Source: Aequorivita aquimaris
Lineage (GTDB): Bacteria > Bacteroidota > Bacteroidia > Flavobacteriales > Flavobacteriaceae
Direction: 5' to 3'
Assembly: GCF_001573155.1 (NCBI RefSeq)
Contig: NZ_JRWG01000010.1
Span: forward strand, 1-64,000
Length of the DNA: 64,000 bases
Made by a program: the position numbers and the translations under genes. This document shows positions 9,934 to 12,820 of the stretch, in pieces. Under the pieces are notes generated by a model that saw nothing but the letters and a program-made list of their open reading frames with translations, had not been told where the DNA came from and made no database searches. Every line of letters starts with the position of its first letter. Positions within the stretch are counted from its first letter, which is position 1.

Positions 9934-9996
9934 TCGTAAAAAATATTTTATACGAATAAAAGGGGCGTTATTCTTGGTTTGTTAAATGGTTTATAT

Positions 9997-10041
9997 AAAA
10001 AAACCCTGAAAACATTGCGCCTCGCAATATTACAGGGGGTT
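9997..10041 (-). terminator. Terminator of the riboswitch expression platform
   Basis: On the minus strand a long hairpin pairs AACCC...ATATTGCG with CGCAATG...GGGTT and ends in seven T. It lies between the TPP aptamer and the TonB receptor start (64 bases upstream of the ATG), the usual place for a transcription-attenuation platform. Confidence 0.8.
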
Positions 10042-10049
10042 CTTATTTG

Positions 10050-10192
10050 TATCCCTTGGCGGCATTACCCGCCCAGGTTCTTTGGGTATAATCTCAGCTT
10101 CTTCGAGTTATGAGTTATGAGTTATGAGTTATGAGTTTTAAGTCTCACCTCTCACCACTACTGGCTCAAGACTAAAATCCGCACCCCTTTGA
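10050..10192 (-). promoter_or_regulatory. TPP (THI-element) riboswitch with a repeat-expanded arm
   Basis: Reading the minus strand, the conserved blocks appear in order: AAAGGGGTGC (10190-10181), GCTGAGATTATACCC, AAAGAACCTGGGCGGGTAATGCC and GCCAAGGGATAC (to 10050). These match the pyrimidine- and pyrophosphate-sensing arms of the TPP aptamer. Between the first and second block, the variable P3 extension is enlarged and contains about four copies of the heptamer TCATAAC. Bound TPP would be expected to favour the downstream terminator and shut off the receptor. Confidence 0.93.
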
Positions 10193-10209: not shown

Positions 10210-10248
10210 CATTTCTTTTTTCAATTTCTCCAAATACTCCCGCATCGT

Positions 10249-10288
10249 TTTCGATTTCGATTTCGGTTTCGGTATCGGTTTCGATTTT
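10249..10288. repeat. Hexanucleotide microsatellite (TTTCGA/TTTCGG)n
   Basis: About six degenerate copies of TTTCGR lie between the divergent promoters of the riboswitch transcript and the hybrid kinase. Such a tract can change length by slippage and would alter spacing in this 130-base shared promoter region. Confidence 0.7.
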
Positions 10289-10327
10289 TTTATCATATCC
10301 TTAATACTTCCCCGTTTCATTACTATT

Positions 10328-10339: not shown

Positions 10340-12820
10340 ATGGCCACTTCAAAGAACAAATTCACCTTTAAAATCATCCTCAGCTACCTTGTTTTGGGGG
10401 CTTTGGCTGTGTTAGTGGGCTTTTTTTTATATTCCGAATTCAAAAATTTCACTGCGGAATCAACAGAAACCACAGGCGAAAAAAAGTTTATTGAAACCGG
10501 AACCCTCATCAATTTGGTTTACGAGACCGATGGCTTTTCGAGGCTCGCGCTTTTAACCGAAAGCGATGAAGATTTTGAAAAATATATGGCGAAGACCGAT
10601 TCGCTTTTCAGAAAAATAGACGAGATAAAATCGCTTACCACCAACGATTTTCAGCTAAAACAATTGGATAGCGTAAAATCGCTGCTCAAGGAAAAGAACC
10701 GAAACATTGAACAGTTGCGAATTCTTCGTTTGACGAACCAAAAAGACACTTCGCTGGACGACATTATGCGCGAGGTGCGAAAACTGGAAGCCTCCGTAGG
10801 CTTGAATTCGGTGGAGTCGTTAATCAGGAATCCGTCAAAATTGAAACCGCGCGAACGCAGCATTTGGCAGAAATATGCCGATTATCTCAACAGTGATGCC
10901 GCACGCGACACATCCACCGTAAAGTCGAAAACCGTAGATTCCATGCTCGTTGCCGCACGGTATATTGTTGCCGAAGCGAAAAAGGAAAATTCGAGAATTC
11001 GCGAATCGTTGATACAAAAAGAGAACGAATTGATTCGCAACGACCTCAACATTTCGGAACGTTTGCGCGAAATAATTGCCAGTTTTGACCGTGAAATTAC
11101 AAAGAACAACAATCTGGAAAAGCAGCAGCGGGCAAAATCCATGGAACGCACCAAGGAAATCCTGAAGTTTGCCGGTATTCTGGGCGGTATCGTGGTTTTG
11201 CTGTTTTCATACTTTATCCTTTCAGATTTTTTTAGGGCGGAACGGTTTAAAAAGAATTTGGAAGAATCCAAAAATTATGCGGAATCGCTTTTGAAAAGCC
11301 GCGAACAGCTCATTTCCACCGTAAGCCACGATTTAAAAACACCTTTAAATACCATCAGCGGCTATTCCGAATTATTTGAAAATTCAAACCTTTCCGAAAA
11401 GCAGAAATACTATTTAGGGCAAATCACTTCCAGCTCGCATTTTATATCGCACTTGGTGGATGATTTGCTGGATTTCTCCAAATTGGAAGCGGGAAAATTG
11501 CCCATTGAAAGTGTTCCCTTTTCTTTGGAAAATATTATCGTTGAAGCCGGGAATGCCGTAAAACAGCAGTTTCCGCAGAAAGCTGTCGATTTGAAGTTTT
11601 CCATTTCGCAGGAAATCAAAAGCAAAATTTATGAAAGCGACCCGCTGCGGATTCGGCAGATTATAAATAATCTCGTCGGCAATGCTTTCAAATTTACCGA
11701 AAATGGAAGCGTTGAAATTAAGGTTGAAGAACTTGACACTTCGACTGCGCTCAGTGTTCCAAAAATTTCCAAAATAAAAATCTCCGTAATCGATACTGGA
11801 ATTGGCATTTCCGAAGAAAAACAGCAACTTATTTTCAATGAATTTACACAGGCCGAAACAGAGATAGCACACAAATTTGGCGGTAGTGGTTTAGGATTGG
11901 CAATTTCAAAAAAACTCACCGAGCTTTTGGGCGGAAGCCTAAAGGTGGAAAGTGTTTTGGGGGAAGGAAGCAACTTTATTTTAACCCTTCCGCTGAAAAA
12001 TTCAGATAGGATTTTGACGAAAACCATTCCGAAGGAAAACATTTCGTTTGAAGGTCTGAAAGCCGTAATTATAGACGATGACCAGTCGATGCGTGCCCTG
12101 TTGCAGGAAATTTTTGAGCAGATGGATATTGCCTCGGAAGCATTTGAAAGTTATGAGCATTTTCGAATCGGTTCGGATTTCGTCCCGATAGCTATCGGGA
12201 TCGATTTCGTTTTAACCGACATACAAATGCCAAAAACCGACGGGTTTACGGTTTTGAAAAAACTAAAAAATGGTGAAATAAATTCCTATAAAAACCAGCC
12301 AATTATAGCAATGACGGGAAGTAGGGAGCACAGCCGCGATTTCTACCTCAAAAAAGGTTTTTCTGAAATGCTGCCGAAACCCTTTTCAAAACAGGAACTG
12401 GTTGCGGTTTTGGAGCGCATTTTTCCAAACCGCAGGAATTTTTCGGAAGAAAAAATTGTGGATGAAATTTTCAAATCAAATTCCACAGACAATGGAAAAT
12501 TCGACCTTTCCCTTTTAGAATCTTTTTTAAATACGCCCGAAGCCTTGGAAGAAGTGCTGGAAGTTTTCAACGTCCAAACCGAAAAAGATCTGCAGCAAAT
12601 CAAAAATTCAATTGCGGAAAATGACACAAAAACTATTTCTGAAATTGCCCACCGAATGCTCACGATGTTCCGCCAAATAAGGGCGAAGGAAGTGATTCCC
12701 ATTCTCGAAAAAATGGAGGATTACACAGCCGAAACAGTTGAACCTGTGGAAATGAAGATGGATTTTGAAAAGCTCATTTTGAACATTCGGGATTTACAAA
12801 ATGCGCTTTCTAATAGCTGA
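10340..12820 (+). CDS. Hybrid histidine kinase (HisKA-HATPase-REC-Hpt)
   Basis: 826 residues. Two membrane spans (about 12-32 and 276-296) enclose a 240-residue, mostly helical periplasmic sensor. Then come HisKA with H330 in STVSHDLKTPLNTISGYSE, HATPase with NLVGNAFKFTENG and GGSGLGLAISKKL, a receiver (about 572-695) with acceptor D627 in VLTDIQMPKTDG, and a C-terminal Hpt domain with H771 in EIAHRMLTMFRQI. All phosphorelay residues are intact. It converges with the sigma-54 regulator with one base between stop codons, so the pair probably form one relay. Two palindromic repeats have been captured in the coding sequence, adding roughly 10 codons at the HATPase hairpin (near 466-475) and 9 codons in the receiver (near 613-622). 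Confidence 0.93.
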   Translation: MATSKNKFTFKIILSYLVLGALAVLVGFFLYSEFKNFTAESTETTGEKKFIETGTLINLVYETDGFSRLALLTESDEDFEKYMAKTDSLFRKIDEIKSLTTNDFQLKQLDSVKSLLKEKNRNIEQLRILRLTNQKDTSLDDIMREVRKLEASVGLNSVESLIRNPSKLKPRERSIWQKYADYLNSDAARDTSTVKSKTVDSMLVAARYIVAEAKKENSRIRESLIQKENELIRNDLNISERLREIIASFDREITKNNNLEKQQRAKSMERTKEILKFAGILGGIVVLLFSYFILSDFFRAERFKKNLEESKNYAESLLKSREQLISTVSHDLKTPLNTISGYSELFENSNLSEKQKYYLGQITSSSHFISHLVDDLLDFSKLEAGKLPIESVPFSLENIIVEAGNAVKQQFPQKAVDLKFSISQEIKSKIYESDPLRIRQIINNLVGNAFKFTENGSVEIKVEELDTSTALSVPKISKIKISVIDTGIGISEEKQQLIFNEFTQAETEIAHKFGGSGLGLAISKKLTELLGGSLKVESVLGEGSNFILTLPLKNSDRILTKTIPKENISFEGLKAVIIDDDQSMRALLQEIFEQMDIASEAFESYEHFRIGSDFVPIAIGIDFVLTDIQMPKTDGFTVLKKLKNGEINSYKNQPIIAMTGSREHSRDFYLKKGFSEMLPKPFSKQELVAVLERIFPNRRNFSEEKIVDEIFKSNSTDNGKFDLSLLESFLNTPEALEEVLEVFNVQTEKDLQQIKNSIAENDTKTISEIAHRMLTMFRQIRAKEVIPILEKMEDYTAETVEPVEMKMDFEKLILNIRDLQNALSNS
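11736..11757. repeat. Palindromic repeat captured inside the kinase HATPase domain
   Basis: ACACT and AGTGT arms flank the core CGACTGCGCTC (11742-11752). The same 11-base core occurs in the intergenic palindrome at 59358-59377. The encoded peptide LDTSTALSV lies in a beta-hairpin between KVEE and KISKIKISVIDTG, where homologous kinases usually have a short turn. Confidence 0.6.
12176..12210. repeat. 18-bp palindrome with flanking 8-bp direct repeats, inside the kinase receiver domain
   Basis: The perfect palindrome TCCCGATAGCTATCGGGA occupies 12183-12200. It is bounded by direct repeats GATTTCGT at 12176-12183 and 12203-12210. Removing one repeat plus the palindrome takes out 27 bases, exactly nine codons, and rejoins GSDF directly to VLTDIQMP, the normal receiver spacing. 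This has the form of an insertion with target duplication that kept the frame. Confidence 0.8.

Follow-up and report, generated by a model that had tools for sequence, protein, structure and literature searches.

Palindromic repeats inserted in frame have precedents in Rickettsia and in the GTAG/CGTC superfamilies of REP sequences. Rickettsia palindromic elements (RPEs) lie in frame in genes that likely encode functional proteins; RPE-4 and RPE-6, which are intragenic, are counted among the CGTC repeats, and RPE-1 is longer (PMC3733652, in its available part). REP sequences of the GTAG and CGTC superfamilies are short, dispersed stem-loops that sometimes sit within ORFs, and CGTC repeats occur in Bacteroidetes too (same source, available part). 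MITEs measure 70–300 bp and carry terminal inverted repeats (PMC3733652, as far as its available text goes). RAYTs, which are HUH Y1 transposases, include a subclass, 2.6, that is found mostly in Bacteroidetes and whose genes are flanked by atypical hairpins that are also present at other places in the genome (PMC6006769, in the portion available). The palindrome described here shares the behaviour of the in-frame repeats but fails the tests of a sequence tag and of a neighbouring transposase. It resembles RPEs in being inserted in frame where orthologues are empty, as seen at the DNA level in a kinase gene and in Mrp, and, for an EPSP synthase, by comparison with the best solved homologue alone. 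It differs from them, when compared by description, in measuring 18 bp, in lacking a tag and in belonging to another phylum (PMC3733652, available part). The repeat has not been described in the literature as far as these particular searches by sequence and by words reach: neither CCCGATAGCTATCGGG nor GATAGCTATCGGG gave a match in a full-text literature search, and the available part of PMC5771137 contains nothing on it.

The window, that is the whole stretch of DNA analysed, is 64,000 nucleotides long and comes from Aequorivita aquimaris. It contains a gene for a hybrid histidine kinase with the palindrome in its receiver-coding part, and the relevant features are the following.

10340..12820, forward strand: hybrid histidine kinase gene with the insert, an open ORF of 826 aa
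12065..12412, forward strand: receiver domain (Response_reg), residues 576-691
12218-12220, forward strand: D627 of the receiver
12176..12210, forward strand: direct repeat GATTTCGT...GATTTCGT, mostly tandem GATTTC older than the insertion
12183..12200, no strand assigned: palindrome TCCCGATAGCTATCGGGA, 18 bp and perfect, with a 7-bp stem and a 4-nt loop AGCT if single-stranded
12180..12182, no strand assigned: left copy of TCG, doubled in comparison with the empty sites at loci L047 and L051
12201..12203, no strand assigned: right copy of TCG, which together with the palindrome makes a gain of 21 bp

The initial annotation had described a palindrome between copies of GATTTCGT (12176-12183 and 12203-12210 of the window), inside the receiver of a hybrid kinase whose frame was intact. 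These positions, the open frame and the numbering of D627 are all correct, and HisKA, HATPase_c and Response_reg domains are found in the ORF. The codons over the palindrome read VPIAIGI; the insert comprises residues 615-621 and ends six residues ahead of D627. Even at 3 mismatches the 18-mer has 1 match in the window, and it has 0 in 100 dinucleotide shuffles. When the site is folded as single-stranded DNA, a longer, imperfect hairpin forms with the palindrome at its tip. The best of five structure models of the receiver has a mean pLDDT of 92.4 and a pTM of 0.87 (the weakest of the five reaches 56.4); it keeps the alternating beta-alpha fold and places the insert in the alpha2-beta3 loop, with a mean pLDDT of 74 for residues 41-50 of the modelled piece. 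The receiver fold is thereby predicted to be intact despite the insert, and the kinase with seven added residues probably still works. Just upstream of the kinase start, the intergenic stretch 10248-10290 holds tandem GATTTCG/GGTTTCGG-like units that resemble the GATTTC tandem of the insertion site. A TPP riboswitch suspected by eye near 9980-10110 is not supported, there being no Rfam hit at the gathering threshold in the window.

A search with the C-terminal 306 residues of the kinase against 28 genomes of the genus gave 21 clear orthologues (E 6e-85 or better), the window's own included. The palindrome is absent from all 20 of the others, the nearest relative by kinase protein being L047 of genome G220 (94% identity). 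Clean empty sites are found in L047 and in L051 (genome G218), both of which read CGGTTCGGATTTCGATTTCG where the window reads CGGTTCGGATTTCG-TCCCGATAGCTATCGGGA-TCGATTTCG. Judged from these aligned sequences, the insertion of a palindrome into the kinase gene is real. Its size and mode differ from what had first been suggested. The comparison of the window with the two nearest empty sites gives a net gain of 21 bp, or seven codons, composed of the 18-mer and TCG, in place of 27 bases and nine codons; deletion had been expected to restore GSDF joined directly to VLTDIQMP, whereas the protein of the empty site is GSDF-DF-VLTDIQMP. The repeated GATTTC is already there, since L047 and L051 carry GGATTTCGATTTCG and GATTTCGATTTCG without the palindrome. 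Because this repeat predates the insertion, the 8-base target duplication proposed earlier is rejected; TCG comprises the only bases doubled relative to these empty sites, which leaves 3 bp at most. A replacement accounts for the window site no less well than a 3-bp duplication does, if the ancestor had three GATTTC units and lost ATT to the palindrome; L052 shows that longer GATTTC-type tandems do exist at the kinase site. Extra residues of other kinds are present at the receiver site in L048, L049, L057, L060, L062 and L063, so that its length varies over the genus and the loop tolerates insertions. The extra stretch in this loop of L048 and L049 is a different one, SNFGSRAESRPDF.

The 18-mer is a dispersed repeat of the class Bacteroidia, which varies widely in copy number between species of the genus and occupies sites that are empty in relatives. 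In the own genome the 16-mer CCCGATAGCTATCGGG has 2 exact occurrences, both inside exact 18-mers, and with up to 3 mismatches allowed there are 26 places, whereas the reversed control has 1; the sequence is not unique there, and the initial proposal of a small inserted palindrome holds to this extent. Among 199 genomes of the own family, 45 contain exact 18-mers (max 53 copies; reversed control 0). In a sample of 395 genomes drawn from the phylum and tallied by kinship, they occur in 28 of 98 genomes of the own class and in 0 of 297 of other classes, with 0 for the reversed control; within the class they are divided among the own family (18/41), other families of the order (0/8) and the rest of the class (10/49). 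At least 117 stretches of named genomes carry the 18-mer, and the best 80 of these comprise 79 from Bacteroidota and 1 labelled 'uncultured bacterium'. Apart from these named genomes, the 18-mer is also present in 37 stretches of viral contigs (L340-L376). Within the genus, allowing one mismatch at most, the 16-mer is present in 26 of 28 genomes and its copies number 0-60, with 60 in G220 and 8 in the own genome, a wide range that is read as fast turnover.

The presence of an identical 18-mer across the class could be taken as the mark of a functional site kept by selection, e.g. a terminator or a protein-binding or uptake signal. Such a role is highly improbable, given that genomes of one genus hold anything from 0 to 60 copies and that relatives do not share the positions in the kinase and in Mrp. 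T-runs are also not in excess beside the palindrome (20 sides near against 20 further out, of 444), and an intrinsic terminator is rejected on this ground. This and the other flank statistics are based on 235 copies, reduced to 222 after removal of near-duplicate flanks, of which 211 have flanks that are long enough; the flanks of viral contigs are included in the flank, stem, direct-repeat, mismatch, nesting and T-run counts.

Copies within genes and RNA genes are not restricted to the kinase. Open frames of at least 150 aa, some of them surely spurious, contain 35 of the 202 distinct exact copies, and in-frame copies are found in Mrp, HisA and EPSP synthase. The palindrome is in frame in Mrp of G220 only (1 of 27 orthologues); the other 26 are 15 bp shorter over the match, and compared with L288 the 18-mer occupies the place of AAC. 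The insert is tolerated in genes when the net change in length is a multiple of three (+21 in the kinase, +15 in Mrp). HisA was matched in 17 of the 28 genus genomes: G220 has the 18-mer, G223 a one-base variant and the other 15 neither, L278, L279 and L282 falling outside the alignment shown but being likewise without the 18-mer. At the same place in HisA, other repeat-like inserts (of the TGTCAGTCTGAGCGCAGTCGAAGACC type) are present in L268 and L269 and at further HisA loci of the genus. The EPSP synthase of Lacibacter cauensis shows a 7-residue gap at the insert in the best solved homologue (a single alignment). In the RNase P RNA of L099 the palindrome lies within a variable insertion.

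Several copies are found in tRNA remnants close to intact tRNAs, with the palindrome in place of a loop, at these positions.

L379: 1026 and 2887
L039: 1501
L045: 1501 and 1907, two copies in a duplicated segment, counted once
L106: 1530
L152: 6098
L188: 1716

Alignment of the flanks to the intact tRNA of the same locus identifies the bases that were replaced. In the D-loop these are AGT (three times), GTT and GTC; in an anticodon loop ATAAT is replaced, and in a variable region GGTCC, together with two unmatched bases, which are the two flank bases of L188. These cases were chosen by eye from the flanks and form a non-random sample; L178, whose right flank aligned to the neighbouring intact tRNA, and L043, a nested copy, are left out of the tally. 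Four sites of G220 were also compared with relatives. One of them, the noncoding L379:3135, gives a clean empty site, with AACA in G207 (L380) where G220 holds the 18-mer. At L379:1026 the insert is common to four genomes, in three of them as variants, and other relatives are without the tRNA remnant; relatives also lack the remnant of L379:2887. L221 differs from relatives in its A/T-rich surroundings as well, and the mobile unit may thus be larger at some sites. A loss of 3-5 bp, rather than a doubling, is seen in Mrp, at L379:3135 and in the resolved tRNA remnants.

The loss of these bases bears on classical MITE-like transposition with a short target-site duplication, of 3 bp instead of 8. 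The palindrome is MITE-like in that it is non-coding and non-autonomous in appearance, an insertion of 18 bp together with a doubling of TCG would account for the window, and direct repeats beside the palindrome exceed their controls, both those of at least 4 bp that abut it (15/211; controls 2.7 and 2.9) and those of at least 8 bp within 3 bp of it (10/211; controls 0.6 and 1.0). However, these repeats vary in length and most copies have none; the longer repeat in the window is older than the insertion; and at 18 bp the element lacks the constant target-site duplication of a MITE, in the kinase, Mrp, L379:3135, the tRNA remnants and the 211-copy flank set. MITE-like transposition is quite unlikely on this evidence. 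In our reading, the direct repeats reflect a preference for slippery tandems, or else short duplications that arise occasionally, and are not the mark of a single transposase.

Closing stems of at least 8 bp surround 9 of 222 copies, against a permutation mean of 1.51 and maximum of 5, and in the 211-copy set they surround 9 copies against 2.35 in a local control; most copies are without a strong stem, which counts against hairpin loops as the favoured target. Copies nested in another copy number 3 of 222. Among one-mismatch copies in the fetched loci, 19 of 34 mismatches fall in the central 4 bases (p 1e-4), which would follow if a single-stranded hairpin can vary freely in its loop; the cause may also be deamination at AGCT. 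It is tentatively proposed, with more doubt than confidence, that a mobile hairpin spreads by loop swapping, in which it precisely replaces 3-5 unpaired bases in the D-, anticodon and variable loops of tRNAs and in the loops of other repeats and of itself, its target being a secondary structure and not a sequence. If true, repeats would here spread in a way that differs from transposition with duplication of the target.

The initial annotation had called the palindrome REP- or MITE-like. Its behaviour fits that description, but the REP tag is missing, as is the constant duplication of a MITE. Like REPs, the 18-mer is a short and dispersed stem-loop; unlike them, it has perfect dyad symmetry and no tetranucleotide tag, and no copy of it lies close to any of 30 Y1 loci (of 55 matches). 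Mobilisation as a REP by a RAYT, e.g. of subclass 2.6, draws support from the 28 genus genomes, in which copy number correlates with Y1_Tnp matches (Spearman 0.50, p 0.006, uncorrected for kinship) and differs between genomes with and without Y1 (Mann-Whitney p 0.001, likewise uncorrected for kinship); Y1 proteins with NHVH or NHFH and YIHNNP-type motifs are present in the genus. On the other hand, CCCGAT-N4-ATCGGG is found close to none of the 30 Y1 loci (out of 55 matches), one of which has a hairpin variant about 1.4 kb away and a few of which ended at contig ends. No Y1 match is present in the own genome at E 1e-3, although this genome holds a kinase copy that is absent from the other genus orthologues. 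No GTAG or CGTC tag appears in the flanks of 222 copies, which reach at most 0.32 bits per position; A is depleted beside the palindrome and G is somewhat enriched at the next two positions, and the window copy reads CGTC over its left edge by chance. No parent IS was found in a search made with Y1_Tnp. RAYT mobilisation is therefore considered unlikely.

The palindrome looks like an unusually small mobile repeat, and the best reading is that of a minimal REP-like hairpin that is mobile, has no tag and prefers the loops of hairpins. That the window's 18-mer is a copy of such a tiny hairpin repeat of Bacteroidia, which takes the place of 3-5 loop bases at several sites, though not at all, is probable on balance. 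The hairpin would move as single-stranded DNA, and might be copied either by a trans-acting enzyme, which may be a Y1/HUH transposase, or through template switching at the tips of hairpins. Within the kinase gene, the palindrome entered the GATTTC tandem and added seven residues to the alpha2-beta3 loop. With its 18 bp it is small enough to add five to seven codons, and across the class it provides housekeeping and signalling proteins with new peptide loops. The precise replacements in tRNA remnants document unusually cleanly how a repeat of this kind is joined to its target, which makes the manner in which REP-like repeats spread testable in genomes with many copies, e.g. G220.

An array of the palindrome occurs as well: in L225 of G220, positions 1501-1744 hold a tandem array of five palindromes spaced at 57 bp.
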